From Apostichopus japonicus (taxonomy: Eukaryota; Echinodermata; Holothuroidea; Aspidochirotida; Stichopodidae), in contig NC_092563.1 in NCBI RefSeq assembly GCF_037975245.1, positions 360,001 through 424,000 on the forward strand: DNA of 64,000 nt, written 5' to 3'. The notes under the pieces are model-generated. The model worked only from the letters and a program-made list of their open reading frames with translations. It had not been told where the DNA came from and made no database searches. Shown one piece after another: positions 9,343 through 58,399 of this stretch. The number at the start of each line of letters is the position of its first letter. Position 1 is the first letter of the stretch. The position numbers and the translations under genes are program-made.

Positions 9343-9462
9343 TTACATCCCAGAAGGCTTTTGGCCATCAAACCAGCTCCATTTTTTATCTCCATCCTCC
9401 AAGCATGTAATTGTTTTGCTCCAGTCATCTTCCAATAGTTTCAGCTCATCGTCAGTGAATAT
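9343..9462 (-). CDS. pmt: gene A terminal exon 12
   Basis: It encodes '[20 protein letters not shown]', then '[15 protein letters not shown]' and TAA. The family ends with an FSeedY...W....W-LF-AKK segment, which this resembles in layout. The acceptor is 'ctctctttaag'. Confidence 0.9.
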   Translation of the reverse strand: MFTDDELKLLEDDWSKTITCLEDGDKKWSWFDGQKPSGM

Positions 9463-12400
9463 CTTAAAGAGAGAAAGTGTTGACATGAGATAAATGATTT
9501 TATTTAGTGCTTAAAAAGTATATAGTACAACCAGAAAGCCAGTTGGCTTCGTGATTTCTTGCCATACAGTTTGCTCGAAATTCCAAATGAATGTCTGACT
9601 AATGTAAAGAAAGTGAGTAAAATATGTCTGACTAACGTGGAGCAAGTAAGTAAAATCTGTCCAGGGTTTAAGTGAGAACCAGAAAAGATCAGAGTTTTCC
9701 AGCAGTTATTTGTAGCACTTCCCTGTGCATGGGCATCAACCATTTCATTCACTGGTAAGTATGCTTACATAATAGAATCTATATTCCAAACGTTTCAATA
9801 TCCAGAAAGAACAGTCTTGCTAAGTGAAATGCAGACACATAGATGTATGACTAACAAAACGTTATCTTTTCCAAGTCTGAGCTAGCAAATCAGCTCTGCC
9901 ACCTTACAACCATCCCTTTATAAATGGTTGTTACTGAATGACAGCTCTACATGACATTGGTTATACATTGTGAAATACTTTCGCAACTTACTGCCAAAGT
10001 ACAACTCATCTAGTATAGAGAAAATGGCAAATTTGAGAACATTTGAGATAACATGTTGACCCCTTGGGCCATTCCCCCCCCCCCCCCCATTTGAGATAAC
10101 CTGTTGTCTGTTGACCCCTTGAAACTCAGAGGACGAAAACTGATATGGGCCTGAGTGAGTGTGTTAAAGACTATTGATTCTCTGAAGAAGATTTCATTTT
10201 CTGGTTGACTGTATGTTTTGTTGAAGATTTACAAAGCCCCTTCACAAAATTGAACTGAATTTGATCAAACTATGTTCACCAAAAGAAAATCATAGCATTA
10301 GACCATTATTGTAGCTTTCATTTTGGAGTTGTCATGGAAAAAAGGTTTTCAGATTTTTTCAACATCATAAGTATGAAGTTCAAGAAAGATGTTCTTCTTG
10401 AGTTATCGTGATTACAAGATTTTCATACTTTGACTTAAATATGACCGCAAATGCACTTTGACATCAACCAATTTCCATAGGGTTCCTCTTCTCAACATGA
10501 GACATCAACATGCCAAGCATGGAATTCATCAAAGCTTCTCTTCTTGAGATATCGTGTTTACAATGTTTCATCTGGTGACCTTGTATGACCTTGATCCCAG
10601 ACAAAAGCTATCGCAGGCGAGAACTTACTATGTTGCTTGTCCATCTAACTTTGTAATATTTGAGTTATCGGATTTACAAGGTTTCCACAGTTTGACCTGT
10701 GGGGAGCTAATATGACCTTTGATCCCAGCCAAAAACAATACCAACCGAGAACTTAATATGTCGTATCAACATCCAAAGTTTGAAGTCCATCCTAACTTTG
10801 GAGTTATCGTGTATACAAGCCAGAGCATCACGTACAAACACATTTAAACACACATGCACACACGGCTTCATGACCGCAATGGTTCCTTTTGCTTTCAGCA
10901 AGGAATAAACAGCAGATATTGAAGTTAAGAGCGCAGTATGTTATTGTATTTCATGATATTTTATTCAATAGAAGTTGCAATATCATTAGCTCTCCCGATC
11001 CATACCGTAACCCTTACCCCATTCGTACCCCAAGCTCCCTTTGCCCAACCCTGTACTCCTACCCTACCCTTCCCAACCTCTACCCCTAGTTTACCTCCAC
11101 ACACACCCGTAGTCCCCAACCCTTCCCTAATATCACCCCTACCCTCACCCCTAACCTCACCCTACCCTTCTTCAGCCCAATCTCTTACTTCTGCCCTACC
11201 GTTACCCCTATAGCTTACCTTTGCTCCTATATCTCACTACATCGTTTCACTAAAGAATGGTTACTGCTTATATCCTAAGGAAAGAAAGAACCACTAAAAT
11301 AATTACCACTGTTAACTCTGGCCTTTTCTCGGAAATGTTCTTCTTTCCATCTGTGAGTTTGTTGATCAGGTGCTGTGACACATCTGTTGTACTCACATCG
11401 ATGAAGCCACCAGACTTCAAATTCTTAATTGTGAAAGAAATCATATTAAGAACTTTCAACTCAAAAGTTAGAAAGACAAATGCCAGTTGTGTTTCATCTT
11501 CTCTGTTTACTACACCTATAAACTTAACGTCTGTGGGCCGACAGGTAGAGAAAGAGGAGGGGATTTTAATTACCTAATTTAAGTATTAAATTGTTAAATT
11601 AGTATTATTACACCACAGGTGAATATAAAGGTCAATCAGTGAACCCTGTACTTTTCAATTGGCGTATAAATAGGCATATAAATACATGTATAAATATGCG
11701 TATACTTACGCGTATAAATTGGCGTATAAATACACCTATATATAGGGCGTATCGAGGGGCATAGTTTGGATGAGTTTGTTTGGAATATGTATGGTGTGGC
11801 CTATTCGTAAAACTCCAAATGTAACAATTTCATGTAGCACCGGCCACTCAAAAATACATTTTCCACCTTCTTTTAGACCCTGATTGCTCGTAAAACTCTG
11901 CGACCCCCCCCCCCCCCCATTTTCTCCTTCCTTTCCGAGAATAAAATCCTCATACGCACTTGAATGGTAATCATCTAACTACATAAATTGCAAATAATCT
12001 ACTTCTTCTCAAAGAATGTGATTTATTGAATCGTATCTCCCTCTTCAGTCTTTTCATGCATCCTTTGTATATGATAGGCCATATATTGAAGCCGATTGAG
12101 CATTCTAAGAGTTAAGACCTTCTTCGATATGAACCAATAAAGTCGGAACCTCCAGCATAAAGTATGTACCAATTATGTTCAGTTAAAATTTCAAGTTAGG
12201 GAGAAAAGAGGGGTGTGGGCTGGAATTCTAAATTATCTTTGATGTGATTAAGCATGTCAAATTGTATTCTATAGAAACATTACCTGGAGGTAATTATCCT
12301 CTGAATCCTGTGAGTTATTTCCTTCAGAAAACTCATAGAACCCGAATTTACCGCCAGGTTTCAACCAGGTCTAAAATCAAAGTCGAAAAATCTTAATTTA

Positions 12401-15400
12401 TTAAATAAATTCACAAAATAAGTCTTATTTCAGTGAATATCCATTGAACAAATAATATAAACGATTGGGAATCTTTACTCACAATCTAAGGACACACAAA
12501 TTTCCATTTTTTGTTTCCTTTTGTACTGCGAAACAGTTTGAATAAATTTAGATTCATTCAGTAAAAACATTCAAATCTCACTACATGGATGAAGATCTTT
12601 GAAGAACTGCATACCATGATGTTCTTCAGCAATGATTGTTTCTTGTGAATATGCATCGATTCTCTTCCGCTATAAATGACGTCAAAGTGTTCTGGAGGAT
12701 AAACACTCTTAGTGACGTCACCAATCTCAAAGCATATCTACAAAGAAAAAATATGAGCCAAATCGTCGGTTATACTGTTGAAAACTGTTGTAAAATTTCA
12801 GCCTTTTTTAGGCCACCCCCCCCCCCACTCCATTTTCTGTACCGTATCCTATATGATCCTTTCTACCACCATATTGGGATGTATTGAGCAGTGCTTAGAC
12901 TAAAGACCATTGGCATAGGAGGGATCCACCTAACGCACGCGTTTTGCGAAATATTGAAAGGCAAGATGCACTTTCTACAATCCCACATTACTTCAGATTA
13001 CCATAATCATGATTTCGAAGAAGACTAATTCCTTACAATATATTAAATCCTTAAAAATTAACATCGTTTACGGAAGAGTAAAATAGATCTTGGAATTTGA
13101 TTTATAAAACAATATTAACAATATTATATTATATAACAATATATTATATAACAATAAAACAATATTATAAAACAAATTTATAAAACAATTTGATATAGAA
13201 ATCAAAGACAAGTTACTTCCTCCTCAGGCAATTGCTTTCAATAAGATTGAAGGGATCAAAGTCTTATTTGATATTTCTGGTTGTTACAAAACTACGAAAC
13301 TAACCTTTATCTCGCTTTTTAGTTGACTTATTCTCTCCCAAGCAACTTCAATCTTATCACATGACGAGTCCACACCTACGACGTCAGCAGAATAGAACTA
13401 AATACCAGTAGAGACCACACACAAAAAACACAAAAAAAAAATTGCCGTCATTTTAAAACTGCTATTGTAATTTGTAACGTTTACATAAAGGAATCTGCAC
13501 TCAAATGCTGTTAAAGCAGCTTCTACACTCACAAACAGTTTACGCACATTGACATGTTTCACATCTCGACAATATAACAATAAATATAACACTAAATATA
13601 GCAACAAATATAGCAACAAATATAACAATTAATAACCTACATATCTACCTACATATACCTATAGATCTACCGTTGTTTGCAAAGATATTCAGAATTAGCC
13701 AATTAATTTGCATGCATAATTCTGAGCGAAATGTGTTGTTGTAACAGTCGCTTGTGCAATGCAGGTGCAATTTACTGGTTAGTATATGAGTGACTTTAAT
13801 TAAACATTGGATCTTGTAAGATTTAACGAGAGAAAGAGATAAAGAGTGTTGAAGAGAGATGGAGAGGTGGAGAAAGAGCTTAGGCGGATATAGCCCGAGG
13901 GTAAAATTAAAAAAAAAAGTCCCGAAGATATATCGAAGGAACAAGGAAAATATGGAATAAAGGGTTACACACTTTCATTTTTTATATGATCTGAGAAATA
14001 TCTTTATTGCTCCCTTTCCTCTAGTTTCCTAACACTTTCTTGGAGATGTATGGCTAAGTGATTAACTTATACATTGTTATCCGTGCGACTAATCCGTGCA
14101 CCCTCCCACAAGCCACGACCATTGCTAATGCTTCTCCGTCCATATAGAGAGGTATGGAACCCAGCCTGAGGTTTGGGGAACTTTGCCGAAGCTATAAGTA
14201 AACTGGATGCTCATTTGCTTTTGCGCGTGGTCGAAAGTTTTTAAGTTTGTTTGACCAGCTTGATAATGAACAAAGAAATTATTTCTCTCTATGAGGGGGT
14301 CGGGGATTGGAGGCTACGTATAGGAAGTTGCAATCAAGGCTATCAAACTTCTCAAGGTAAGCCATTAACAGAGTCATGTTATAAAATAACAACCAAACAC
14401 CCTGGTTTGGGTATTTAAAAGCGACGATACTAACCTGTCTCGATTCTTGCATTTTAAATGATTCCCCTTCTCCTTAACCCTCTTCCGGGTCAACGGACCA
14501 CATCATATCATCCGTCTGGATCTAATCAAAACCCTCAATAGTACCTCATTTACTTAGTAACTATGTTCTGTAGTTACCAGCCTCTTTATAACTTTGTTCT
14601 GTAGTTACTAACCTCTTCAATATTAATGGTGCCCAAGTTACTTAGTGAATTTGTTCTGCCGTTACTAAACTTTTCAATATGAATGGTACCCCAGTGACTT
14701 AGTAACTTTGTTCTGTAGTTACCAGCCTCTTCAATATTAATGGTGCACCAGTTACTTAGTGACTTTGGTCTGTAATTACCAGACCATTCAATATGGTGCC
14801 CAAGTTACTTAGTGAATTTGTTCTGACGTTACTAACCTTTTCAATATGAATGGTACCCCAGTGACTTAGTAACTTTGTTCTGTAGTTACCAGCCTCTTCA
14901 ATATTAATGATGCACCAGGTTACTTAGTGACTTTGTTCTGTAGTTACCAGCCTCTTCAATATTAATGATGCACCAGGTTACTTAGTAACTTTGTTCTGTA
15001 GTTACCAGCCTCTTCAATATTAATGGTGCACCAGTTACTTAGTGACTTTGGGCTGTAATTACCAGCCTCTTCAATATGGTACCCCAGTTACTTAGTGACT
15101 TTGGTCTACCGTTACTAACCTCTTCAATATGAAAATCAGCGCTGCCTGTGCCGCAAGCGAGATCCAGTACGTTCTGTCCTGGTTTAACATTCAGTTTTTC
15201 AAACTGTGTCTGTTAAAAAGACAAGTGTTAAATAACTAATGGCTACTTTGGTGTAAAGCATACGAAACTCATTGGCAAACTAGAACTGCATTTGCCTGCA
15301 AAATTTCACAGTATTGTAGTGCACGTGGAGTGCTTGCAGTATTACAGGAAGAACTTTTCGGTTGTTCATGGTGTCATTTTTTGGGCGGACAACACAACAG

Positions 15401-18400
15401 GGAGTATAGTCATGTAGGTACCTACAAAGTGAGGGCGCTTATGAGTGCCGTAACAGGCTTAGAAAAAGTTGGCTACGCAGCTAGCCTCTGAACTGCAAAT
15501 GTTCAAAGACTATGAGAAATTTTCAACGTCAAGTCATATATGTATTGTCACTTGGCCAGTAATGCCAATATTGAAGCGCGCATGCGCACTGCAATAAACA
15601 TCCTGATTACAAAATGCTAAATACCGATTATACATGCCGTCGCGTTGCAATTGCGAAATTTGGAGGAACAAGTTACAATTTAGGGATGTGCTGAAACGTT
15701 TGAGATAAAACTGCCAAATTTTACAGATAAAACAGTAAACAAATTCATTAAGAAGATTACACTTTTCTTTTTTTTACATCGGAAATAGTGGAGAAAATAG
15801 GTACTAAGTGAATAACGGAAAATGTAAGACAAAATCGTCGAAATATTAGGGAAATCTGAAATTAAATAGTTAAAATTTCGATAAAATAAAATATGCAGAA
15901 ACAGACGGCATTCTAATGTTAGAATTTCAAAACTTCTCTGGTGTTTAGATTACTCAAACGGTTATATCTATAATTGGACTACATTATCTTACATGCATAC
16001 AGGTTAGTGAGGAGTGTTAACATTTCCAAAATCAAAATTCTTCTGTGAAAGACCGGTTTTCTCATGCCCCTTACCTTTCAGCTTCAAAAATACAATTACT
16101 ACTAACTATATAGACAGTCGCATATAAGTGTTATTGGGAATAAATACAGTCGAGAAAGGAAGTTCCAAAATCATCTGTAAATAAATTACATCGCTGGATT
16201 GCAAGCACTGTCCAAAGAATTACCTGAACAATGATATCTGAACAAATATACGGTCATTTATTTCCACACATGCTTATAATTCATATCATCGTTACATCAC
16301 ATGGCATTGTTTTACCTCGATGAAATGATGTCCCAAGAAAGTGTTGTAGTCATCACCCAATAGCCTCTCCAACTGCGAGATTGTCTTCTTCGAATCCAGT
16401 TTGCATTTCAGTGTCTGCCTTGGATCAACAGAAATCTCCCTTCCGTAGTCTTGCTTACATTTCTGCAGCAGCCAACACATTTGATTTCTATTCTGCTTCA
16501 GCTGAAAAAAATTACATTGATTTTAATCAATATTATCTCAAAGCGAATCGTTCTTAACAAAGCTATATCCATTTAATAGCGGCATAACAAAGCAGCGGGC
16601 CTATTTCAACTCAAAATTCAGCATATCATTCTAAAATTATCAAAATTGCTTTCAAATGCTAATATACTATTTTTACTAAACTTAATTTTTATAAACTTAA
16701 TTAATTCCAGGCAGTGAGGAGTAGCAAACACCGGTCAAAAATTGTGAATTAACTCAGACAGGATAAGAATTTTAACCACGGCAACAACTACAAGTTTACG
16801 GTAGCATACGCCCGTTAAAAGCCCCATTGACTTACACACTAAATCACAAAGTAATGTGGTCTCTAAGTCTAGATAGAAGTTTTCACTAGCTAAACGCTAC
16901 CCATCACCGGATAGCTGACAAGTTGGCCTTTCATGGCACTATCAATTTTCCGTACCATGACCATGTAGATTTTTTGCTATCCGAGCCGGAAGTTTTCGTC
17001 ACTTGTAAGCAAACCTCTTCACTCAGTGGTAAACAAATTTCCTACGCTGCTCCTGGGAGGCCTAAAGTGGTCTAAAATTGCCTCAATTGACCCAATTTTT
17101 TCACCACATGTACTTCCATTCATGCTCTTCAACATGCAAGCCACAAAAAACTAGATTAAACTAGATCCTTTTTGGCACTTTTCCTGAACAATCGGGCGGA
17201 TCGATATAGACTCTAATAGGAGTATGCCACCTTACGATGGCAATTCACTAGGTGACCATCTTGCCTTTTTCTAGCACAATTATAACGGTAAGATTCGTAT
17301 CGCTGTTGCTATGGAGATCTTCGACAAGCGTAGTGGCTTTAAAGAAACTCAAACGACAATGGAACCAAAGAGCAAGTCCTATAGCAATTCCTAGCAAGTC
17401 GAAGTAGACTCCGTAGATTGTGGTTGGTAGCTCAGTGCCAATAATGTTACCAATTTGTTGGCATGTTAGATGGGCGTGCGTATGGATAGGAGACAGGAAA
17501 AGACATGACTAAAGTTAATCCAAATATCGATCCCTAAAAATGACTGCTTATATCGCTATAGAAAGACTAAGGGATTTTGAATATACAGTCTAGTCGTTTC
17601 TAGTAAACGATGTACTTTAGCCATTTTGAATGCCCTCCCGCACTCTCATCCCTTATGCATGAGCCCTTCTAAGAAAGATGTTTGCGTTCCTTTGATATTT
17701 TCCCTTATTACAAAACTGCATAACGCTCAGACAGTAATGGTTCAAACTAAATCAATCTACAGCTAAAATTGGCCTTCTCAACAAATCACCATGAAATAAA
17801 CTATGTGGAATAGAAGGCGTCAATTCGATTCTAAAAAAAAATCGTATTTGGCACTACTAGTTTTATACTTTTCAAAATTTCCATATGTTTTCTTTATGAT
17901 TTGAAATAAAATAGAACTTTATATCACGTTAATTTGTTGTTATTAACGAATCGTATGGACAATTTACCAAAATCAACACAGGTGTACTCTAAGCCTACCT
18001 TTGCGTAAGATTGTAAACTTTTTACAAAGACGATATTAAAGTCCCAATCAGACTGTTGACATTCAATCTTTCCTTTAGTTCCCATCAGTAAGTCATGATA
18101 TTCCTGGGGTGAACGGTAGTAAGTTGGGTTGTATTCTATGTCATAGTTACCTATGTATGAGAGATGACACAAACGTATTTCATAGAATCTGTCGCCGAGA
18201 TAGCAGGGTTTTCCCCCTTCAGAGTGGTATATTCGGAATAAATAGGAATTGGCTGATCACCATGCATGCAGAATCGCGGGTAAGCTGGGGGGCTCAAATA
18301 ACACACTTCATCTGCACAACCTGCAAACATTGTTTGTTTTTTAGTACTTCCCTTCCATCGACCCACTTCCGAATCATCACCCTCTTTGACTAGCAATTTT

Positions 18401-21400
18401 TGGCAAGTTAGGTAGAAGACGAAAGTGCGTTATTTGAGAGGAGACAGGTAAGAGAGGGGTGAAGTAAATTTACAATATAGAGTGAGAGTAACTTCCAACT
18501 TCCTTCGGGATCTGCCTGTGATTTTTCCATTCATATTCAACATAACCGTGTGCTACGTCAAGGGATGTGGGGGGGGGGGGGCTGGGGGAGGTTTTCACTT
18601 TATAAACTATTTTCATGTAGGTAGTTCCGTCTGGTCGACAGATTAATTAAACCAACCTTTTTTCCAATTTAAAGAAAATAATATGGTCAAACTAAACCAA
18701 CTTCCCAAATTCTTCTTTGATTGTTGCTGTTATTGTTGTTTTTCTCGAAACGAACAATAGTTTACAAGTGCTTAATTATGCCATTCCACTCTTTTCACAC
18801 CAAATCGTCGGTACTTTATCATATAAGCATTAATAAAATGCAGACAGCCTGTTAATGAAAAGTTCCATCTTCTCGATTACCTTCATTGGTTTGTAAACGA
18901 ATTATGAACCTTTGATTTTCACTGAAAGTGCAACAAATAGTTTCGCAAAGTTTCCAAAAATATGGGCAAAGAAATCTACTGTAAGTGAGAAGACAAGCCG
19001 GACTAAATGTAAAGCGTTAAGGATCAGCACATACCACTTGCTACATTACAGGATTCCCTACAGAAGAAATAGCCGCCATCTTTCAGCCACATCAGCATAC
19101 GCTGCTTTATCATGGCCATGTCTTCAGAGGAGAGGTACATCAAAAACCAGTTTGTGAATATAATATCAAAACTGAAATAAATAAATAAATAAAAAATATT
19201 AAATAAATGAATGAATGAATGAATGCATGAATGAATGTATGGATGGATGGATGAATTAATTAATTAATTAATTAATGGATGGATGAATGAATGAATGAAT
19301 GAATGAATGAATGAATGAATGAATGAATGAATGAATGAATGAATGAATGAATGAATAAATGAATAAATAAATAAATAAATGAATGAATAAATAAATAAAT
19401 GAATAAATAAATAAATAAAACTTGAAAAAAATAGGAAGAGGAAAAGTTTAATGTCTGAAAATTAAAGCCAAACTCCAATCTCAGCGCCCTCAAACAGGAT
19501 AAAGCATTTGTGTTATTTACTCGCTAGGACCCATAAGACTGAAGACACTTGACGATTACGATGTTCATATGGGCAAAGGCGAAGCGGGATGGTAGACAAA
19601 TGGACGCACGGGCAAATTAAACTGTAGAGTTCCAAATCCAACTATAGAGTTCTAATGAGGTTTACAAGTTACATTCAATTAATGTGTTAATTGTATTTCT
19701 TATAACATCACCTCCCGATCGGGTACTTGCTGTCTCACCATGCAGGTATGCACCCATCACATCCTTCTCCCTTCTACCCCTCCCACAGGACTCCGGCCTG
19801 GCCGCATTGTTAGTCAATCTCTTACCTTTTCTCTGGGAAGCTAAGGTTCATTGCGTCATCAGCTATGAACTGAATATTTCCTCGTTTCTTGTTCTTGTCC
19901 TTATTTTTCTCAATAAACTCCGCAATGAAGTCCACAGTAGTCACGTGTGCTGCCTGATCTGCCAGAATCCCAGTAAATCGTCTGTTTGGGTATAAACAAA
20001 GGACAACAAGTCGAGTAACAAAACAGCGAGAAACCAAGGGCGGCGGAACCGGGGGGCACAGGGGGCACGTGCCCCCCCCCCACTTTTCCTCAGGTTAAAA
20101 ATGTGCCCTTTTTCTACATAAAAATTGAGGTGTCTCAAGTTAGCAAGAGGCCAGGGAACCAGAATGAACACTCGGGAAGGGCCGTTTCCGGCCATCTGAG
20201 GGGTTTGTAAAACCCAAAAAAACAAAAATTTTCTTGTACGCTCCGCGCCAACCGATGGTGGCGCTCCGCTCAGATAGTCGTGCATACAACTTTGCAAATC
20301 CTGGCTACGCCCCTGACTTTCAATGAATTTCTGTGGGTCAATCTCAAAGCTATTTCGAATGGAAAATTTGTTAAGATATTAACAAGAAATAAACTCTAAT
20401 TCGGAAGATTCCTACATTAGCAACTAGCATGATTTCACCTCATTTTGTCTCAAAAGAAAACTTGTTCCTTGTTTCCCAATTTGCACATTGGATATTACAG
20501 TGCTAGTATGCATATTTTCCTTGAGGGGGGGGGGGGGGCGTTGATGGAGTGATGTGTATACGCAAATATGATAATACAATAAGAGTTATAAAGGGTACTA
20601 AATATAAGGCTGCATCAGTCCAATCGAATTTCTGCAAAGTGCCCTTTGATGTCGGTGCCCCCCCCCCCCCCAGATTAAAAGTGCTTCCGCCGCCCTTGCG
20701 AGAAACCCATAACAGGGTTAATGGGATAGAAATAACTGAGGATAAAAAAAATATATATTTGCAAATATTCCTTACTTATATAGTCATCTCGTTTCGCGTA
20801 CGTTCAGATTTGACAGAATGGCATCCCGTACGACAGCCAGTGCATATGGGAACACATAGCCCCTTGTGCGATCGCGCTAACAAACTTACTATGAAGCCCG
20901 CTTGTGCGCAACTCTATAGAGACACTAATCAGTGTGCCTGCGTAGCGCGCCTTCCAGCTCGTATAAAGGCTAAAACAGAAATATGTTACAGAGCCGAAGG
21001 CTTTACAACATCTTGGCCTCGTGCACACTGTTAGTGTTATATGTAGGTATAATCATGAGTTTGATAAAATACTAAGGGCGCTCCCGGGCACTGAACGGTA
21101 AGTTATGAAAAGCTAAGTGGCGAATGTATGTCGCGAGCTACGCATTGAGGAAGCAGACAAAGAAAAAGTCCGACCGGATAATTTTACCTAGAGAAACCGA
21201 ACTTTGTTGACGTACCAATAGGATGCTTTGTATCATTAATTATTGTTAGTTGCAAACACAAGGCAAGTGATGGTACTACACTACAATCAACGGTGTCCGA
21301 CATTCAAAAACAGATAGTCAACGTGATAAATGCATAATGAACACGCAGGCAATATAAAGGTTATATATTGATTTGCGAATTTGCGACCTTCAGTCAAATC

Positions 21401-23405
21401 TTCCAAGTTTTTCTAGCCGGCCTCTCCCATTTCCTCTCATGAAATTGGGGATTGAAATTGAAGATGAAATATTTACCAGAGCGTCTTCACTGTAAACGGT
21501 CTTGACATCAGTAATATGAATCAAGCACGAATTATTTTCGGACTTACCCAATTCCTCCTGCTAGTTCCAGAATTCGTTGGCCCTTATATTCTGGTAGTAG
21601 GCTCAATACTTCAGGCAATTCTTCTCTCTGCAGGCTCGATGCATTTGTATCTAGCATCATGTCCTCAGCACTGGCATCTTTCGTGAAACCAGACCAAAAC
21701 GACAGCATCTCTTGTCTGATTTCACCTGAAGCTAATAGAAGAATTGATATTTGATAATATTCAAAGGATATTTAGTTATGAATATCTCAATGTCAATTAT
21801 ATTTGCAAATATATACTTATAACAAGTAAAATGAAAATGTATTACCTCATCATCAATGGTACAAATTTTGTTAGATATGGAAAGATAATTTGTTTAACTC
21901 CAAAGAACTTTGGGATAATTTTCCAACCATCATCAAAACGGACCTAGAGTCCGACACCCACCAACCGCTAGCCCTTGCATATACAATGCAGGAACACCTC
22001 AAATATCCACTGAATTCCTTGTCCGACACCCACCGCTAGCCCTTGCATACAATGCAGGAACACCTCAAATATCCACTGAATTCCTTTTAACTACATACAT
22101 AACTAGGATGTAGACAGTTGAATGAAATTAATTCGTCAACGACAGCCCCGCTGTTTGCCTTGAGTTTATCATTGCCTACATCACAAGTGAGAAACGATGA
22201 ATTGATAATAACATTAATGGAACGATTTCTATTATTTATTACGTGATATTTCGTCTTAGAACTAGAGCAGGCAGTCCTGCCGATGATAACAAATTTACAG
22301 GCACCAATATGTGGCCGTAAAAGTCTATGCGATAGAAAATTGTATATACAGGTAATAGTGCTTTCCGTTCTTAACAACAGTATGAAAGCGATCAACAGAA
22401 GCAAACAAAATATATATTTGGAAATTTGGAAAAAGGAAATCAAATGCAAGGAACATTTACGATATAAGATACAAAAACAAAATATACCAACTAAACAAAA
22501 ACAAAGAATCTGAATGTTTAACAATTTTCCGTATCATGACTGTGCAGATGTTTTGCTATGAGAGCTTGACGTTTTCGTCACTTGTAAACAAACCTCTTTA
22601 CTCAATGGTAAAAACAAATCGTCGGCTGCTCCTGGGAGGCATAAAGGTCCTGGGAGGACTAAAAGGGTATAAAATTGCCTCAATTGACCCAATGTTTGCA
22701 CCACATGTACTCCTTCGATCATGCTCTTGAACATGCAAGTCACAAGAAGAAGAAAATACAGATCCTAATTGATAACATATTAAAAAGATGTTCTCCTGCT
22801 GCTCATGGGCTAACATATTGAGTTGTAAGGTAACAACACCCTGACTAAAACCACAAGGAAAATACTTGAAAATTGTAAGAACGTTTTAGGATGCTAAGGT
22901 TGACTTTGGGGCCGATACTGAATGATAACTATCATTCAACTTGTAAGCACTCGAAGCACCATGGAGCACATGCTTATAAAGTGATTGGCTTCAATTAATA
23001 GTTCTCTAGTATAAGCTGCAATGTATAAGAATTATATTAAGCATGTCTTAAATGTTAAGTAAATATGTATCGTGTTTTAGCGTATATGGACGCACAGGCC
23101 TAAACACATCTCATCAACAATTTGACTGGCGCTGAGCTTATATGTAATTTGCAGGCATATTTAATTTTCGTGGATATTAAAATAAACGATATATTATATC
23201 CTATTTACGAAGTTATACACAAAAGCCCAATTTTGTTTTCTTTTTCAAAAGAAGTCCCTTGAGCACACATTTTAATTTCTTATTAGACAAAACAATATAA
23301 CCAATCTCTTTGTTGTTGTTGTTGTTTTCATTGTTGTTGTTCTTTGTGTGTTTTGAGTAAAAACCTTATTAACTCACCAGTCTGGTTGACTCTAGGACTT
23401 GTCAC
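9343..23405 (-). CDS. pmt: phosphoethanolamine N-methyltransferase-like gene A (12 exons)
   Basis: A two-domain SAM methyltransferase of the phosphoethanolamine N-methyltransferase type (phosphoethanolamine to phosphocholine), expected in the cytosol. Exons in order: 23378-23405, 21548-21725, 19826-19981, 19035-19171, 17999-18150, 16316-16501, 15120-15209, 13305-13397, 12615-12737, 12284-12370, 11307-11423, 9343-9462 (TAA at 9343-9345). They join in frame to 489 codons including the stop. Domain 1 shows '[11 protein letters not shown]', '[10 protein letters not shown]', '[14 protein letters not shown]', 'WLKDGGYFF' and '[13 protein letters not shown]', all typical. Domain 2 shows '[17 protein letters not shown]', 'DVVGVDSS', '[16 protein letters not shown]' and 'WLKPGGK', but lacks the family's FVSTGG linker. 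The base triplet matching gene B's ATG is GTG, with no in-frame ATG up to the upstream stop; the first Met is in exon 2 (codon 16). All introns are GT/AG. Confidence 0.85.
10100..10900. repeat. dispersed repeat R3 ('gagttatcgtgtttacaag' family) in gene A intron 11
   Basis: Successive segments contain 'gagatatcgtgtttacaatg', 'gagttatcggatttacaagg', 'gagttatcgtgtatacaag' and 'tgacctttgatcccagcc', spaced by 150-200 bp. Related segments are at 30880-30960, 42400-42700 and 56690-56870. Confidence 0.75.
10975..11215. repeat. CCCTA-rich pyrimidine tract in gene A intron 11
   Basis: About 240 bp built from irregular 'cccta', 'ccctta' and 'accc' words. It is too irregular for a telomeric array. Confidence 0.75.
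11307..11423 (-). CDS. pmt: gene A exon 11 (domain 2)
   Basis: 39 codons: '[20 protein letters not shown]' then '[15 protein letters not shown]'. It aligns with the LKDAGF segment of the family and, residue for residue in length, with gene B exon 11. The donor is 'gtg|gtaatta'. Confidence 0.87.
12284..12370 (-). CDS. pmt: gene A exon 10 (domain 2)
   Basis: It encodes '[17 protein letters not shown]' and 'DSEDNYLQ'. WLKPGGK is the conserved beta-turn after motif III. The acidic loop is short compared with plant enzymes. The acceptor is 'gattttag' and the donor 'cag|gtaatgt'. Confidence 0.88.
12615..12737 (-). CDS. pmt: gene A exon 9 (domain 2)
   Basis: It encodes '[20 protein letters not shown]' followed by '[19 protein letters not shown]'. 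The family usually has YSRD-LHI here, so gene A retains the HI while gene B has lost it. The donor is 'atg|gtatgca'. Confidence 0.87.
13305..13397 (-). CDS. pmt: gene A exon 8 (SAM motif II, domain 2)
   Basis: It encodes '[20 protein letters not shown]'. The Asp of GVDSS is the expected SAM-ribose acid. The acceptor is 'ggtatttag' and the donor 'aag|gttagtt'. Confidence 0.88.
13398..14519. other. gene A intron 7, unique part
   Basis: AT-rich, with a short 'aacaaatatagcaac' repeat near 13570-13630. No gene is seen. Confidence 0.6.
14520..15119. repeat. about 57-bp minisatellite grown from the exon 7 splice donor
   Basis: About ten units of 'cagttacttagtgactttgt' + 'tctgtagttaccagcctctt' + 'caatattaatggtgcac' directly abut exon 7. 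On the coding strand each unit carries a copy of the exon end and donor, 'attgaagag|gttagtaac', exact in some units ('gttactaacctcttcaatat') and decayed in others ('gttaccagcctcttcaatat'). Confidence 0.9.
15120..15209 (-). CDS. pmt: gene A exon 7 (SAM motif I, domain 2)
   Basis: The acceptor is 'tttttaacag' and the donor 'gaagag|gttagtaac'. It encodes '[20 protein letters not shown]'. By direct count it matches gene B exon 7 at 21 of 30 residues. Its 3' border has been copied into the neighbouring minisatellite. Confidence 0.9.
16316..16501 (-). CDS. pmt: gene A exon 6 (inter-domain linker)
   Basis: It encodes '[17 protein letters not shown]', similar to the family's NQ-ICW segment, and '[20 protein letters not shown]'. 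In plant-type enzymes this region carries an ILRYE...FVSTGG signature, which is absent. It is phase 0 at both ends. Confidence 0.87.
16940..17160. repeat. dispersed repeat R2, copy in gene A intron 5
   Basis: Partner of 22510-22745 (shared 'gttttcgtcacttgtaa', 'gctgctcctgggagg', 'tgcctcaattgaccc'). A weaker third copy may lie near 25030-25310. The flanking 17161-17998 part of intron 5 shows nothing else. Confidence 0.7.
17999..18150 (-). CDS. pmt: gene A exon 5 (end of domain 1)
   Basis: The acceptor is 'ctcatacatag' and the donor 'aag|gtaggct'. It encodes '[16 protein letters not shown]', matching the family's NPThYR segment, and 'SLQSYAK'. It is three codons longer than the gene B exon. 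Confidence 0.88.
19035..19171 (-). CDS. pmt: gene A exon 4 (domain 1, post-I motifs)
   Basis: It encodes '[17 protein letters not shown]' and '[14 protein letters not shown]', the strongest family signature in the window. Gene B has Phe where this copy has Cys in 'FFCRES'. The donor is 'agtg|gtatgtg'. Confidence 0.92.
19172..19430. repeat. (TGAA/TAAA)n tetranucleotide repeat touching exon 4 acceptor
   Basis: About 260 bp of 'tgaa' and 'taaa' units start 3 bp upstream of gene A exon 4. On the coding strand the units are TTCA/TTTA, so the repeat itself forms the pyrimidine-rich tract before the acceptor '...tttatttcag'. Confidence 0.95.
19826..19981 (-). CDS. pmt: gene A exon 3 (domain 1 core)
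   Basis: The acceptor is 'acccaaacag' and the donor 'aaaag|gtaagag'. It encodes '[20 protein letters not shown]', whose Asp is the expected SAM ribose-binding acid, and '[11 protein letters not shown]'. Confidence 0.9.
20035..20698. mobile_element. hAT-type non-autonomous element (664 bp) in gene A intron 2
   Basis: It starts CAAGGGCGGCGGAA and ends with the exact inverse TTCCGCCGCCCTTG, a perfect 14-bp terminal inverted repeat. A perfect 8-bp target duplication CGAGAAAC flanks it at 20027-20034 and 20699-20706. An 8-bp duplication and CA-GGGCG termini are hAT hallmarks. No transposase frame is seen. The left boundary lies 53 nt from the exon 3 acceptor. Confidence 0.9.
21548..21725 (-). CDS. 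pmt: gene A exon 2 (SAM motif I, domain 1)
   Basis: The acceptor is 'attagcttcag' and the donor 'attgg|gtaagtc'. It encodes '[15 protein letters not shown]', '[17 protein letters not shown]' and the start of the glycine-rich loop AGGIG, in which the Gly codon is split by the intron. Confidence 0.88.
21947..22085. repeat. about 70-bp tandem duplication in gene A intron 1
   Basis: 'gtccgacacccacc...aatgcaggaacacctc...cactgaattcctt' occurs twice in a row, with a short 'aaccg' and 'ta' difference between copies. Confidence 0.9.
22510..22745. repeat. dispersed repeat R2, copy in gene A intron 1
   Basis: About 230 bp resembling 16940-17160: both contain 'caattttccgta', 'gttttcgtcacttgtaa', 'gctgctcctgggagg' and 'aaaattgcctcaattgaccc'. 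Class unknown. Confidence 0.75.
23378..23405 (-). CDS. pmt: gene A exon 1, start codon reads GTG
   Basis: This aligns over 28 nt with gene B exon 1 (58372-58399): both are preceded by 'ttcagt', both end 'ACT G|gtgagtt', and both encode a decapeptide of pattern x-x-S-x-x-x-N-x-T-G. Gene B has ATG and gene A has GTG. Upstream in frame there is no ATG before a TAG. Either the start lies elsewhere, a non-AUG start is used, or translation begins at Met 16 in exon 2. Confidence 0.6.
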
Positions 23406-27225: not shown

Positions 27226-27261
27226 ATGCAAAACAGAAGTAACAACGTATAGTTTAGACAG

Positions 27262-30580: not shown

Positions 30581-30880
30581 GTGGAAGAACATTGTTCTGC
30601 GCATGGGCAGTCTGTACTAACTAGGGGGGAACCCCCTCATTATTGTCTATTTAGGCTAAAGTGTAATTTATTTAAGAAGTTTTACCATTGTTCTTCTATT
30701 ATTTCTTTCCACTGTGATTATATGCGAAATGGAGACCGAGATAAGAATGAGTTACAATAATAAATTTATTGCTGTATAACACCTCAAGACGAATCTATAC
30801 ATTATCACTCTCTCCTACTTTACAGGATCCAGACCACCTTGTTACATATATATATGTAAATATGGAATTGGTCCAACCTT

Positions 30881-33438: not shown

Positions 33439-33720
33439 GGAGTGGATAAAGGTAAACATAAAAAAAGGTGGAATAAGCGATTACATTTTTAGAATCTGGT
33501 AGATTTTTGGCCATAAAACCAGCTGTATAAGAAAGGAGTGGATAAAGGTAAACATAAAAAAAAGGTGGAATAAGCGATTACATTTTTAGAATCTGGTAGA
33601 TTTTTGGCCATAAAACCAGCTATATAAGAGAGGAGTGGACAAAGGTAAACATAACAAAAGGTGAAGTAAGCGATCACATTTTTAGAATCCAGAAGGTTTT
33701 CGGCCATAAAACCAGCTCCA
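33439..33720. repeat. triplicated tail of gene B last exon and 3' flank (about 96-bp unit)
   Basis: Three head-to-tail copies start 'ggagtgg' at 33439, 33535 and 33632. Each holds 'ggccataaaaccagct', 'ttttagaat' and the following 3' flank. The third copy overlaps the real exon. The outer two therefore carry a second and third copy of the last ~12 codons with the stop, as untranslated DNA. Confidence 0.92.
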
Positions 33721-33801
33721 TTTTTTTTCTCCATCATCCAAACATTTGATCACTTTGCTCCAGTCATCCTCCAGTATTTTTAGTTCTTCTTCAGTGAATA
33801 T
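33682..33801 (-). CDS. pmt: gene B terminal exon 12
   Basis: It encodes 'IFTEEELKILEDDWSKVIKC', 'EKKWSWFYGRKPSGF' and TAA. The acceptor is 'ctctctttaag'. Its last 12 codons are part of the triplicated unit described at 33439-33720. Confidence 0.92.
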   Translation of the reverse strand: MFTEEELKILEDDWSKVIKCLDDGEKKWSWFYGRKPSGF

Positions 33802-42800: not shown

Positions 42801-45800
42801 TACCACTTGGTCTATGACACGACTCCCTGAAGAAAAAGTAACCATCATCTTTCAGCCAGATCAGCAAACGTTTCTTCAACGTCTCAATGTCTTGTATGGG
42901 GAGGTACATCAATAGAGCATTAGAAAACACAATATCAAAACTGAAAAGACAAGGAAAAATATATGCCTTGTGATCCTTGTTCTGTTTAACGTCTCCAAAG
43001 CAACATCTCATTCCATGCCACCAGCCCCACCCTCCATCCCACATCCTCCATTGGAAAAGTCGGTGCCATAAGCTACCCATCAAACAATCAACATCCCAAC
43101 CATGACTGAGGTATTAAAACAGCAGGAAAACAGAAAATGTCTAGAGTCAAACTGGGGTCTGCAGACCCCTCTGGAGAGTGTTAAAGTTTACATCAAAGCA
43201 AACCTACTGTAACAGAAGCTCCTGATTTGCCAACACCTTGTCCGGTGGCAAATCTCAATGAGTTAGAATCATTGTAACATTTCCTGAAAGATAACCTCTC
43301 TATCTCAACCATAAGCATAATTCATTGTGCAAATTGAAAAGGGAAGTCTATACTTAATTGTATTGGAGTCTTTCACTGTAACCCCCTGCCCCCCCTTCCC
43401 CCCCCCCAGTCAGGTGGTTAACAGTCTTTGCATTGTGAGATAAATTACATCATATTGGAAAGATAACTCTTCAGCAAATCATTTTCCGTTTCAAACTAAG
43501 AAACAAAGAAAGCAGTAGTAGTGTAACGGCAAGTTGAAGTTACGTCTCTATGATGGAGCCATAGAGATGTTTGTCTTACTTTAGTTCATTGCTGCACGGG
43601 AAAGAGCGAAAGATATTGATATGTGGTCATTGGAGATACTTTCAAGAAGTAAACTTAAACGTTCTGAATAATTCAAATCCCCTTTCTGATCCATACTGCT
43701 GACTGACTCCTTCCTGCATGCCTGCCATCCCAACCCCCTCTCCCATCCTCCCCTTGCCAGGGTTCTCACCCACCCCCCTCTCCCATCCTCCCCTTGCCAG
43801 GGTTCTCACCCAACCCCTCTCCCATCCTCCCCTTGCCAGGGTTCTCACCCAACCCTCTCCCATCCTCCCCTTGCCAGGGTTCTCACCCAACCCCCTCTCC
43901 CATCCTCCCCTTGCCAGGGTTCTCACCCAACCCCCTCTCCCATCCTCCCCTAGCCAGGGTTCTCACCCAACCCCCTCTCCCATCCTCCCCTTGCCAGGGT
44001 TCTCACCCAACCCCCTCTCCCATCCTCCCCTTGCCAGGGTTTTCACCCAACCCCCTCTCCCATCCTCCCCTTGCCAGGGTTCTCACCCAACCCCCTCTCC
44101 CATCCTCCCCTTGCCAGGGTTCTCACCCAACCCCCTCTCCCATCCTCCCCTTGCCAGGGTTCTCACCCAACCCCCTCTCCCATCCTCCCCTTGCCAGGGT
44201 TCTCACCCAACCCCCTCTCCCATCCTCCCCTTGCCAGGGTTCTCTGGGCCTCTGTACCTGTAGTCACTGGTAATCTCTTACCTTTTCTCTGGGAAACTTA
44301 GGTTCATAGCATCACCAACTCTGTACTCAATATTTCCATGATTCTTGTTGTTTTCCTTACTTCTCTCGATAAATTCTGCTATGAAGTCCACAGTAGTCAC
44401 ATGCTCCGCCTGCTTGGCCAACGCCCCTGCATATCGTCTGTTGGGGTATATAACATGAGGATGTCTATTAAGGTAATAAACCCACAAAATGGGCAAGGAA
44501 AAGGAGGGTGGGGGATACAGGTCAAAAATATTTGCTTCTTAATTATACTTTGCAGAACGTTGATAATCGTTACCCAGTTAAAGCATACAGTATGTTTCAA
44601 ATAAGTTACCATGTATGTTACTAAATTAGTGTTCCAGTACATTGTTCTTGTAGAAACCACCCTACGTGTAACACAGTTATCACCACAACTGCAAGACAAT
44701 CGAATGAGATGCGTTCTACCATCACAGGTCACAGAATTCAAATTATATTGAGGCTGCAAACAATCAGTATCATAAAGTACATTTTCATGACAATTTTAAG
44801 TCCTACACATTTCCAACATACTGTATGATGTATAATCCTTCACAAAGAAGAACATTTGCTATGGATATTTCCTAGAGAGGGCGTGGATATAGCATGGGTG
44901 ATCTGTACAGCTCTTATCTACATGCCATAGCTGACCAAGACTGTATTATGCATGGACAATGCAAATTGTAACCACTAACTTGCATAAACAACTCACATCA
45001 GAATCCATGGACAATGACAAGCTTCATAATTAATTGCTATACTGATATACATATATATAGACAGGAAAAAGGATCTTCCATTCTCTGCCATTAAATTGTC
45101 AAGTTCCACTCTACTGTGTTCAGTGTATACTGTGTGACATGAATATTCAGTATGTAGTGATTTACAGCTCTCTCTCACATCTCCAATAAATGTTTTGTAC
45201 ACTTACCCAATTCCACCTCCCAGTTCCAGGATGCGTTTCCCCTTCCATTCTGGAAGTAGGCTTAATACTTCTGACAATTCTTCTGCATCCATGTTTGATG
45301 CATCTGTATCTAGCAGCATCTCTTTTACACTAGGATCTTTCTTGAAACCAGACCAAAATGACTTCATCTCTTGTCTTGTACCACCTGAAGCAAAAAGTAA
45401 AAAAAAAACACTAAATCTTTTCTAAGTAGGACTCTTTCTTTTTTCAACTGTAAATTTTTTGCTCTGACTTTCTACTTGGAAAAGATGTTTCTAAACCACA
45501 TTAAATTGCCTTGTACAATTGTACAAAACTTACTTACTGAGTTTGGGAGCGCAATGGACACACCAACTTAGTTTTGGAATTAGTCAACTAATGGAGATTT
45601 AAATTTTATCATTATTTCTTTCTGTGAAACTTCCAAGAGCCCACTGCTATATACACACATACAAATGGACCGCACCACTATAAGGAATAGGGAGGCGCAG
45701 GTCTGTCAAACAAATGATGACAGGTGAACACCAGAGATCAACAGTCATCAGTTTATTACTGTAGATCAACATATACACAACACAAAGAAATAGCCTCAGG

Positions 45801-57800: not shown

Positions 57801-58399
57801 CATAAAGAAAGTTACCATCAACCCGTTTGTTTAAGTTGTGATGCCTGTGCTTTACCGATCGTAAAAAAAAAGTTATTGTTGCAAGCAGCACACCTTAGTA
57901 AAATTAAGCCTATATGGTATAGTAACAATTAGGATTGAGCTATACGTACTGCAAGTGCAAGGCTACGAATTTATATTATCATAGCGTATTATGATATTAA
58001 ATTACACGTAAAGATTACAAATAGTGTCGATTTTATCTTAAATATAAACCTTTAAACTTGCTTAAAATGAAACTCGTATTTAACGATAAACGACAACGGA
58101 GTCTTTCACAAGCAACTTAAGTTACATGCCTGGTGTTATTATTTCCGCGCTAAACAAAATAATGTACTGTTTCTGCAAATAATCATAGACATTAGGCCAT
58201 TAGTTAGGGTTGATGATCAAACAATCACATTCCCGATGCAAGGGGACTGGGGTTGAGAGCGGATCAGTCGTTCGGTAGTTTGGTTTTTCGTGCCCAAGTT
58301 GATCTTTCCTGGGTGACTGACTTTTCTTAAAAAGTATTAGTTAGGGTCGGTATAAAAGTTTAAAAACTCACCAGTCCGGTTAAGCTCAGTACTCGCCAT
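33682..58399 (-). CDS. pmt: phosphoethanolamine N-methyltransferase-like gene B (12 exons)
   Basis: Duplicate of gene A with the same 12 exons and intron phases: 58372-58399, 45207-45384, 44282-44437, 42804-42940, 41796-41938, 40020-40208, 39432-39521, 38838-38930, 38195-38317, 35130-35216, 34041-34157, 33682-33801 (TAA 33682-33684). The joined frame is 487 codons with stop, close to the length of plant two-domain enzymes. Start ATG at 58399-58397 gives MASTELNRTG. Domain 1 has 'RILELGGGIGR', '[10 protein letters not shown]', 'FDIVFSNALLMYLP', 'WLKDDGYFFFRESC' and 'NPTYYRGPHEYHD'. Domain 2 has '[17 protein letters not shown]', 'DVVGVDSS' and 'WLKPGGK', but 'YCGQERMGVQKK' where the family has YSRD-LHI. 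The 13-kb intron 1 holds a gypsy element and a MITE. Phosphocholine synthesis is likely for domain 1; the role of domain 2 is uncertain. Confidence 0.87.
34041..34157 (-). CDS. pmt: gene B exon 11 (domain 2)
   Basis: It encodes 'ILKSAGFTELSTGNESQYLI' and 'AGAKRGITEKKEDLRK'. The acceptor is 'caacaattcag' and the donor 'aag|gtgaacc'. Confidence 0.92.
34325..34664. repeat. 40-bp minisatellite in gene B intron 10, about 8.5 copies
   Basis: The unit is 'ctggcccctacttatgaatt' + 'tcatttgtaaaggtatagtc'. Nearly identical copies imply recent growth. Confidence 0.97.
35130..35216 (-). CDS. pmt: gene B exon 10 (domain 2)
   Basis: It encodes 'IWLKPGGKLFFYEFCGGKSS' and 'EDSEENYLQ'. The acceptor is 'tttaatcctag' and the donor 'cag|gtgatgt'. 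Confidence 0.92.
36230..36443 (+). mobile_element. tRNA-headed SINE (family S1), copy 1
   Basis: The head 'GGAGTGTTAGCTCAGTGG' holds an A box and 'GAGTTCGAGTC' a B box. The body includes 'atgtatgtcgtc', 'ggacgttaaat', 'cggtcagctt' and 'gttcctgcttgc', and the tail is (acat)n. The same order of blocks is found on the minus strand at 52019-52262, which defines the family. Confidence 0.88.
36552..37305 (+). pseudogene. non-LTR retrotransposon fragment (CR1/L2-type reverse transcriptase 3' end)
   Basis: Across shifting frames the DNA reads 'LFNLSRIKSIRKYFT', 'QNMTAKLVLGKGKFDS', 'LHSLHWLPIKARIQYK' and, further on, 'ELKTHLLKKAFYLD'. This is the usual C-terminal sequence of CR1/L2-like reverse transcriptase ORFs. 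It ends 'gcgctttataagttaataaacataaacataaa', typical of a short A-rich 3' repeat. Frameshifts and stops show it is dead; the 5' end is truncated. Confidence 0.85.
38195..38317 (-). CDS. pmt: gene B exon 9 (domain 2)
   Basis: It encodes '[20 protein letters not shown]' then 'VYCGQERMGVQKKQSFLNN'. The His-Ile of gene A's MHIHKK has become Gly-Val-Gln. The acceptor is 'cctctgtag' and the donor 'atg|gtatgtc'. Confidence 0.88.
38838..38930 (-). CDS. pmt: gene B exon 8 (SAM motif II, domain 2)
   Basis: It encodes '[20 protein letters not shown]' and 'EKKSQLERDIK'. The acceptor is 'ctttgtacag' and the donor 'aag|gtgagtt'. Confidence 0.92.
39432..39521 (-). CDS. pmt: gene B exon 7 (SAM motif I, domain 2)
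   Basis: It encodes '[20 protein letters not shown]' then 'GSADLYIEE'. The acceptor is 'catatcaacag' and the donor 'gag|gtaagtc', a better donor than in gene A (gttagt). Confidence 0.92.
40020..40208 (-). CDS. pmt: gene B exon 6 (inter-domain linker)
   Basis: 63 codons: 'NRNIICWLLRKCKQGS' and 'LKSKKTILQLVKLLGDNCTT'. It is one codon longer than in gene A. Again no FVSTGG-type signature. Confidence 0.88.
40655..40776. repeat. 58-bp tandem duplication in gene B intron 5
   Basis: 'attataagtctcaatactgt' ... 'tctgtacattatacgtccagatgctt' occurs twice in direct succession. Confidence 0.9.
41560..41665. repeat. two abutting palindromes in gene B intron 5
   Basis: 41560-41614 folds on itself: ATGTGGGTTGAT...GCTCATGAGC...ATCAACCCACAT, with a few mismatches. 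41614-41665 is a 52-bp palindrome with one mismatched pair, centred on CTTGCAAG: TTGTCTAACTCGTGGCTGAA...TTCAGCCACAAGTTAGACAA. They share one base. Upstream (41330-41590) a 120-bp segment is directly duplicated ('agagtctatt.tagaaaa.gaacat'). Confidence 0.9.
41796..41938 (-). CDS. pmt: gene B exon 5 (end of domain 1)
   Basis: It encodes 'NFSLQNNPTYYRGPHEYHDI', then 'WEFRVINARSLQCYVK'. The acceptor is 'ttcatacacag' and the donor 'aag|gtaggcg'. Confidence 0.92.
42400..42700. repeat. dispersed repeat R3 copy in gene B intron 4
   Basis: Contains 'gagatatcatgtttacaagc', 'agggcatcatatacgcacac' and 'ccccaatttgactgcatagg', also seen in part at 10545-10870 and 30890-30960. Confidence 0.75.
42804..42940 (-). 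CDS. pmt: gene B exon 4 (domain 1, post-I motifs)
   Basis: It encodes 'FDIVFSNALLMYLPIQDIET' and 'WLKDDGYFFFRESCHRPSG'. The Trp of gene A's TNW is Ala here. The acceptor is 'gtcttttcag' and the donor 'gtaagcttt'. Confidence 0.92.
43737..44244. repeat. 40-bp minisatellite in gene B intron 3, about 12.7 copies
   Basis: The unit is 'ttgccagggttctcacccaa' + 'ccccctctcccatcctcccc'. A period of 40, not a multiple of 3, leaves Pro/Leu-rich false frames on the plus strand and Gly/Arg-rich ones on the minus strand. It is strongly C-rich on the plus strand. Confidence 0.97.
44282..44437 (-). CDS. pmt: gene B exon 3 (domain 1 core)
   Basis: It encodes '[20 protein letters not shown]' and '[11 protein letters not shown]'. 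The donor 'gtaagag' is followed 37 nt later by the 40-bp minisatellite. Confidence 0.92.
45207..45384 (-). CDS. pmt: gene B exon 2 (SAM motif I, domain 1)
   Basis: It encodes 'RQEMKSFWSGFKKDPSVKEM', 'LSLLPEWKGKRILELGGGIG'. The acceptor is 'tttgcttcag' and the donor 'attgg|gtaagtg', the same phases as gene A exon 2. Confidence 0.92.
45829..45890 (-). mobile_element. weak tRNA-like sequence in gene B intron 1
   Basis: The minus strand reads 'gtggccgtcatagtggttaa' ... 'ggtcccgggtttgatgag', with A-box-like and B-box-like parts but a poor B box and no clear stem pairing. Possibly a decayed SINE head. Confidence 0.3.
46570..46920 (-). mobile_element. hAT MITE, copy 2 (351 bp)
   Basis: Starts CAAGGGCGTAGGAA and ends TTCCTACGCCACTG. 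A perfect 8-bp duplication TGAGTATT lies at 46562-46569 and 46921-46928. It is the reverse complement of copy 1 at 25967-26343, with shared 'ggcggaagtatcattccgcc' and 'caccaaattgcatc' motifs. It sits in gene B intron 1. Confidence 0.94.
48093..48211 (-). repeat. gypsy 3' LTR
   Basis: It begins TGTAGTATC right after the polypurine tract and ends near 'caggacaaaaca'. Similarity with the 5' LTR continues past this point into 'ctggcgacgaggta', which resembles a primer-binding site. A primer site after a 3' LTR is odd. Confidence 0.7.
48707..51720 (-). pseudogene. gypsy pol remnant (protease, RT, RNase H, integrase)
   Basis: Protease: 'KMEVDTGASRSTISERKY' (51448-51720), with the catalytic DTGA motif. 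RT: 'VYQKARPVPYSLVGRVNKEY' and 'VCGDYKKVNKVI' (50827-51279), then after a frameshift 'VFCYIDDIATTTTDEH' (50556-50834), the YIDD box. RNase H: 'LLSVDASPYGLGAVLSHRL' and 'AIYAVKKFHLYLCGTKLS' (50167-50540). Integrase: 'VRMCSECISTQNKP', 'QVVSDNGPQFISSEF' and 'PYHPASNGLAEKHVQT' (49373-49941). The first integrase Asp, usually in H-x-D-F, is Glu (IHLEF). The C-terminal 'WIPGTIVQIKGTNTYLVRV' is at 48707-49045. Several stops and frame changes show it is inactive. Confidence 0.88.
51945..52389 (-). repeat. gypsy 5' LTR interrupted by a SINE
   Basis: Outer part 52276-52389 starts TGTAGTATTTAACCCTAACA and holds the cgaataaacc signal. Inner part 51945-52018 holds 'ataaagctctctgaatcc'. The 3' LTR reads straight through the junction ('ggatatcatataaagc'), which proves the insertion. 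Confidence 0.8.
52019..52262 (-). mobile_element. tRNA-headed SINE (family S1), copy 2, inside the gypsy LTR
   Basis: The minus strand starts 'GGAGTGTATAGCCTAGTGG' (A box) and has 'CTGGTTCGATTCCCC' (B box). The body has 'aatgtgtgtcgtc', 'catggacgttaaat', 'acggtcagcttgc' and 'gttcctgcttgcgggaagat', ending in a (catа)-type tail of tatg/catac repeats. It matches copy 1 at 36230-36443 block by block. Confidence 0.9.
53149..53365. mobile_element. right end of a third foldback-like element
   Basis: It begins 'gaacagcgccgccagcg', the same inner border as in copies 1 ('gaacagtgccgatgac') and 2 ('gaacagcgcccacagc'). It continues with 'aaaggagacaacaacatt'-type tandem repeats and ends 'ccctttcggtgttccata', a variant of the family terminus. 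No left end was found nearby. Confidence 0.6.
53669..53845. repeat. about 25-bp minisatellite 'catttcgcccaaccagcctggt'
   Basis: About seven units of 'ggtcatttcgcccaaccagcct' with small changes, in gene B intron 1. Confidence 0.92.
53857..54350. repeat. imperfect tandem repeat, roughly 120-200 bp unit
   Basis: 'aggaaacgttcgggaattgtt' and 'gatcagtgttttaggggttagg' recur three to four times with variable spacing. Confidence 0.8.
54655..54905. repeat. about 120-bp tandem duplication
   Basis: Both copies contain 'ataatataacttccaataat', 'aaattgaactagtgaaatag' and 'cacaccgattcccctttgtt'. A partial third copy of the last block lies near 54358. Confidence 0.9.
55148..55665. promoter_or_regulatory. 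cluster of (C/T)(A/G)TGTGTGAC motifs
   Basis: Eight copies of TGTGTGAC, on both strands, occur within about 520 bp. Most have the form (G/A)C(A/G)TGTGTGACATT, two follow 'ttgttgggt(a/c)ac', and 'GTCACACACGTG' faces 'CACGTGTGTGAC' in inverted array. CACGTG is an E-box core. The cluster lies in gene B intron 1. It could be a regulatory array or a decayed tandem repeat. Confidence 0.4.
56690..56870. repeat. dispersed repeat R3 copy
   Basis: 'gaagttgtcgtgtttaccaag', 'tgacctttgaccaatgcaca' and 'cctttgaccctcacag' match the pattern of R3 at 10100-10900. Confidence 0.6.
56871..58371. other. 5' part of gene B intron 1
   Basis: AT-rich DNA with a C tract at 57703-57716. No coding exon or recognised element is seen. 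Confidence 0.5.
58372..58399 (-). CDS. pmt: gene B exon 1 with ATG start
   Basis: ATG GCG AGT ACT GAG CTT AAC CGG ACT G then 'gtgagttttt'. The single G left over pairs in phase with exon 2, which needs two bases GT to complete a Gly. It is linked to exon 2 across a 12,987-bp intron by phase and by homology with gene A; no transcript evidence is available. Confidence 0.75.

Follow-up and report, generated by a model that had tools for sequence, protein, structure and literature searches.

In nematodes, the half-reactions of phosphoethanolamine methylation are split between separate phosphoethanolamine methyltransferase (PMT) proteins, PMT1 and PMT2, as described in the available portion of a published study (PMC10269165). 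The same portion reports nematodes whose genome has a single PMT1-type protein (AsPMT and OdPMT), and yeast carrying one such PMT1-type protein is among the strains that it describes as grown without choline. The PMT2-type enzyme TcPMT is described there as methylating phosphoethanolamine, and PMTs are presented as anti-nematode targets, the step being absent from mammalian cells. For PMT-1 of Haemonchus contortus (HcPMT1), that text names four residues that constrain the pocket (W14, M26, M27, and W123) and links the narrowness of the pocket to a stop after one methylation (PMC10269165). For PvPMT, the available text of a second study places Y16, Y24, H129, Y157, R176, and Y178 around the substrate and methyl group (PMC4357015). 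In the literature that we searched, a limited library, no echinoderm PMTs were found, and published ones may exist.

We analyzed a 64,000-nucleotide stretch of Apostichopus japonicus DNA (the window; contig C3, 360001-424000), in which a tandem pair of 12-exon PMT-like genes, here called A and B, had been predicted. Both genes were rebuilt independently from splice signals and reading frame (Table 1). At the level of gene structure the original prediction was borne out: its 12 exon-pair lengths were reproduced pair by pair, all 11 introns of A agreed with those of B in position and phase (11/11), and the common strand that it had claimed without naming proved to be the minus strand for both genes. 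Every intron had GT-AG borders (11/11 in A, 11/11 in B). The coding sequences comprised 1467 bases in A and 1461 in B, with frames open over 488 and 486 codons, respectively (stop not counted), and no internal stops. Exon pairs matched between the copies far above chance; in tblastn, for example, exon 2 gave an E value of 9e-20 and exon 3 one of 4e-25. The exception in form was the first exon of A, which has GTG at the place of the ATG of gene B. Over the 28 bases alone, 18/28 were identical between the copies, a level reached in 22/300 simulated sequences and not significant; with flanks and the donor site included, 36/54 bases were identical and 0/1000 simulations reached that level, so the first exon of A is homologous to that of B, though without an ATG. 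The first in-frame ATG of gene A is codon 16, located in exon 2 three codons upstream of a conserved Phe-Trp, and a Met occupies the same alignment column in B and in a third gene, C, described below.

Table 1. Exons of genes A and B (window positions; MT1 and MT2, first and second methyltransferase domains)
Feature	Coordinates	Strand	Length (bp)	Remarks
Gene A exon 1 homologue	23378..23405	-	28	GTG first codon, not ATG
Gene A exon 2	21548..21725	-	178	SAM motif of MT1; codon 16 is first in-frame ATG
Gene A exon 3	19826..19981	-	156	
Gene A exon 4	19035..19171	-	137	Trp of MT1 pocket kept
Gene A exon 5	17999..18150	-	152	
Gene A exon 6	16316..16501	-	186	MT1-MT2 linker and altered MT2 start
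Gene A exon 7	15120..15209	-	90	MT2 SAM motif VLDLACGTG
Gene A exon 8	13305..13397	-	93	
Gene A exon 9	12615..12737	-	123	
Gene A exon 10	12284..12370	-	87	Shorter by 45 bp than its gene C counterpart; two phosphate-binding residues gone there
Gene A exon 11	11307..11423	-	117	
Gene A exon 12	9343..9462	-	120	TAA end; 9343 is the end of the last exon of gene A
Gene B exon 1	58372..58399	-	28	ATG; 58399 is the start of the first exon of gene B
Gene B exon 2	45207..45384	-	178	Met-Met of MT1 pocket is Met-Leu
Gene B exon 3	44282..44437	-	156	
Gene B exon 4	42804..42940	-	137	Ala instead of MT1 pocket Trp
Gene B exon 5	41796..41938	-	143	
Gene B exon 6	40020..40208	-	189	
Gene B exon 7	39432..39521	-	90	
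Gene B exon 8	38838..38930	-	93	
Gene B exon 9	38195..38317	-	123	
Gene B exon 10	35130..35216	-	87	Shortened as in gene A
Gene B exon 11	34041..34157	-	117	
Gene B exon 12	33682..33801	-	120	TAA end

Repeats and other elements lie in and near these genes. Intron 1 of gene B carries, on the minus strand at 49507-51312, the pieces of an interrupted retroelement, which we take to be Ty3/gypsy-like. Matches to RNase H (6e-8), integrase (3e-9), and reverse transcriptase (1.1e-5, which falls short of the Pfam cut-off) lie there in separate open frames. In intron 3 of gene B, a minisatellite of 13 copies of a 40-bp unit (43729-44244, 97% matches) holds two open plus-strand frames of 186 and 188 codons, which could mislead gene-finding programs. 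Three copies of a 97-bp unit at 33429-33717 overlap the stop-codon end of the last exon of gene B, and the tail of this exon thus seems to have been duplicated into 3' flanking sequence. Further minisatellites have units of 56 bp (37306-37926 and 36434-36558), 40 bp (34328-34661), 60 bp (1-432), and 57/167/283 bp (14589-15133), the last overlapping exon 7 of gene A by 14 bases. A tRNA-like gene is present on the minus strand at 929-1003; ARAGORN assigns it to tRNA-Cys (anticodon aca), and it scores 42.4 bits against the Rfam tRNA family.

The PMT family assignment made in the original prediction was upheld. The best solved-structure matches of the whole gene B protein were Arabidopsis PMT2 (AtPMT2, 5wp5; 3.8e-81) and PMT1 (AtPMT1, 5wp4; 1.6e-78), and the whole gene A protein aligned end to end with both (by alignment, not by search). 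When the MT2 halves were searched separately, AtPMT2 was matched at 1.2e-34 by A, 1.6e-32 by B, and 1.9e-104 by C. Among NCBIfam families, the best 25 of 64 and 57 per protein were all general methyltransferases and fell below cut-off.

The predicted pair proved to be part of a set of three. The third PMT gene, C, is on the plus strand immediately past the right edge of the window, such that B and C are divergently oriented. Its exons 2 to 12 were located at C3:427702-438144 (67702-78144 when the window numbering is extended), and all 10 introns located share their positions and phases with introns of A and B (10/10); introns common to the three genes favor local descent. A search of C3:410000-427702 for exon 1 of C returned nothing convincing, and C could thus begin closer to the window, or within it. 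Together, A, B, and C span less than 69 kb of contig C3. In a search of the whole genome (671.6 Mb, 35 contigs) with B, all matches with an E value of ≤0.001 fell in A, B, or C, and the search with C again returned these three genes alone at 0.001 or better; both searches score best candidates only, such that a diverged fourth copy could escape them. The best matches outside the cluster had E values of 0.0013 (query B) and 0.0055 (query C) at 23 to 30% identity; those on contigs C8 and C13 overlap general Methyltransf_25 matches, and another is on C22. Among the best candidates scored in these own-genome searches with B and C, no second-domain-only PMT-2-like partner was seen. Elsewhere in the assembly, COX1-like pieces with internal TGA occur at C29:14745-16086 and 30842-31219, besides the mitochondrial contig C35; they could derive from another mitochondrial copy, from a nuclear insertion, or from foreign DNA. 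Contig C35 itself (16,099 bases) yields the COX1 residues expected, such as STNHKDIG and FGNWL, if AAA is translated as Asn (NCBI table 9, the echinoderm and flatworm code), and its genes and tRNAs follow the order of sea urchins or sea cucumbers, which points to an echinoderm.

The original prediction had also described A and B as duplicates of the complete two-domain form, and here the residue comparison went against it. At the six PvPMT residues of the catalytic dyad and phosphate site listed in the available text of PMC4357015, C has 6/6, A has 1/6 (the His alone), and B has 0/6; the state at Y16 depends on how a poorly conserved region is aligned. R176 and Y178 belong to a segment that exon 10 of A and B lacks (87 bp, versus 132 bp in C). 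Over the whole domain, we defined 82 invariant MT2 columns on C, AtPMT1, AtPMT2, PkPMT, and PvPMT. A keeps 40 of these and B keeps 37; 38 were lost in both genes, with a further 4 lost in A alone and 7 in B alone. At 28 of the 38 jointly lost columns A and B share the same new state (a gap in 5 of the 28), and most of the change in MT2 thus preceded the separation of A and B. Identity to AtPMT2 is distributed between the domains in A and B in the reverse of the balance seen in C: 57.1% (145/254) in MT2 and 45.8% (103/225) in MT1 for C, against 30.5% in MT2 and 41.5% in MT1 for A and 28.5% in MT2 and 38.6% in MT1 for B. By these comparisons, C looks like the sole complete two-domain PMT of the three. 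Ordinary tandem duplication of a complete two-domain enzyme would account for the two-domain architecture of A and B and for their end-to-end match to AtPMT1 and AtPMT2; however, with the MT2 substrate site lost in both genes and kept in C, we find this reading hardly credible, and on the residue counts we reject A and B as complete duplicate enzymes.

Other features of MT2 persist in A and B. The fold is still recognized (Pfam Methyltransf_31, 68.6 bits in A, 55.7 in B, and 72.9 in C), and both genes retain D82 and D107, whose side chains contact SAM. G60, a backbone SAM contact, is Ala in both copies, which makes SAM binding by their MT2 domains putative; at I33 and I108, likewise backbone contacts, the residues are Asn/Thr and Val.

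In the first domain, 52 invariant columns were defined on C, AtPMT1, AtPMT2, HcPMT1, and 6wlf. A keeps 47/52 of these and B keeps 42/52, being changed at 10/52. The pocket residues named for HcPMT1 are W, M, M, and W in A and C (4/4) and W, M, L, and A in B (2/4). Given the link between pocket and methylation drawn in the available text of PMC10269165, the changes at two of the four positions suggest that the range of substrates accepted by B may have widened. With its MT1 altered in this way (10/52 columns, W to A, M to L), B may not act on phosphoethanolamine.

A and B are identical at 59.3% of aligned residues in MT1 (140/236) and 65.1% in MT2 (162/249), the excess in MT2 not being significant (bootstrap, 0.10), and dS between them is about 0.69. 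Judged by this dS and by 59 to 65% amino acid identity, A and B are old duplicates; the dS value rules out a recent duplication. The ratio dN/dS, obtained by a counting method, was 0.344 in MT1 (0.229-0.518) and 0.325 in MT2 (0.213-0.476), where ranges are 95% codon bootstraps and each value is an average over the A-B pair, such that recent relaxation in one copy could go unseen. Taking the recognizable fold together with the MT2 ratio, the second domain of A and B has lost its substrate site but is not visibly decaying, averaged over the pair, and seems to be under selective maintenance. In unrooted trees of MT1 (n = 7 sequences), MT2 (n = 7), and the full length (n = 5), A and B grouped against the rest with support of 99, 100, and 100, respectively, in agreement with the local duplication that had been claimed for them. 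The branch to A and B was 1.23 in the MT2 tree, with tips of 0.26 each, and 0.41 in the MT1 tree, with tips of 0.24 and 0.42. In the full-length tree, A changed less (0.23) than B (0.36).

These measurements bear on two further explanations. Either gene or both, with A the likeliest candidate, could be untranscribed or decaying duplicates, as the replacement of ATG by GTG in A and the altered MT1 pocket of B might indicate. However, the frames have stayed open over 1461 to 1467 bases with 11 GT-AG introns per gene at this dS, dN/dS is 0.34 for MT1 and 0.33 for MT2, A is the less changed copy in the full-length tree, and its codon 16 ATG has a counterpart in B and C. We consider decay very unlikely; open frames, GT-AG introns, dN/dS, and branch lengths likewise disfavor gene A as a plain pseudogene. 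Alternatively, MT2 could have been repurposed, keeping SAM binding and taking on a new methyl acceptor, which would make A and B enzymes with two activities. The recognized methyltransferase fold with D82 and D107, the long branch followed by short tips in the MT2 tree, the 28 of 38 joint losses with the same new state, and an MT2 dN/dS as low as that of MT1 are all consistent with this explanation. Yet it comes with no candidate substrate, A and B have both lost the catalytic Tyr, B has also lost the His, and the substrate loop is partly missing; a structural role would also give the same trace. We therefore regard repurposing as unlikely.

The reading that we favor, with a probability of about 0.5, is that A and B are old local duplicates limited to MT1 chemistry that have retained a noncanonical MT2 beside a complete-looking C. 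According to this model, C would be an ordinary two-domain enzyme, predicted to convert phosphoethanolamine to phosphocholine through all three methylations. A and B would derive from one older copy whose MT2 had lost the phosphobase and catalytic site, and this MT2-altered copy would then have duplicated in tandem. A, and perhaps B, would be expected to act through MT1 only; A (perhaps B) would mainly catalyze the first methylation, from phosphoethanolamine to phosphomonomethylethanolamine, with the intermediates passed on and the later methylations left to C. The MT2 of A and B is probably folded, perhaps binds SAM, and could serve as a structural or regulatory partner of MT1. The restriction of A and B to the first step is weakened by the nematode work: in the available part of PMC10269165, a single PMT1-type nematode protein supports yeast growth, and PMT1-type proteins occur alone in some nematodes, which suggests that a PMT1-type protein may carry out more than one methylation. 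A more specific scheme, in which phosphobase methylation would be divided among the three genes of a non-nematode animal, strikes us as distinctly unlikely: C would run the whole route, A would perform the first methylation only, B would act on a different or larger amine through an MT1 opened by the W-to-A and M-to-L changes, and the conserved MT2 of A and B would bind SAM either with a new acceptor or as a SAM-sensing regulator.

The cluster is of use in several respects. Ancestor-like and derived PMT forms can be compared in one animal, and the retained noncanonical MT2 lets the role of a retired catalytic domain be tested directly. The range of PMTs in animals also bears on the specificity of PMTs as anti-nematode targets.

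Compared with known PMT systems, A and B combine features of several. The Arabidopsis enzymes are homologous to them end to end, with the same MT1-MT2 order, and are the best solved-structure matches of B and of all three MT2 halves (A, B, and C); however, the MT2 site retained by the Arabidopsis enzymes and by gene C has been lost from A and B. The MT2 domains of nematode PMT-2 (4krh and 4ine) and of the Plasmodium PMTs (3uj6, 4iv0, and 4iv8) are homologous to those of A and B, whereas the phosphobase site present in PvPMT and PkPMT, the two checked residue by residue, is missing from A and B. Haemonchus contortus PMT-1 (4krg) is like A and B in having a conserved MT1 and no canonical MT2 site, and gene A carries all four of the pocket residues given for it in the available text. 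Only residues 13-251 of 4krg align to B, yet the MT2 of A and B still matches PMT MT2 domains first. For MT1, a topology joining A and B to the PMT1 chains 4krg and 6wlf was not the best of three compared, although it was not rejected (AU P = 0.199). A and B resemble nematode PMT-1 in their putative division of labor rather than by an established common lineage. Unlike the nematode PMT-1 case, A and B still have beside them a gene whose MT2 site is intact: a loss of the MT2 site similar to that of nematodes appears here in an echinoderm that keeps a complete-looking enzyme next door.
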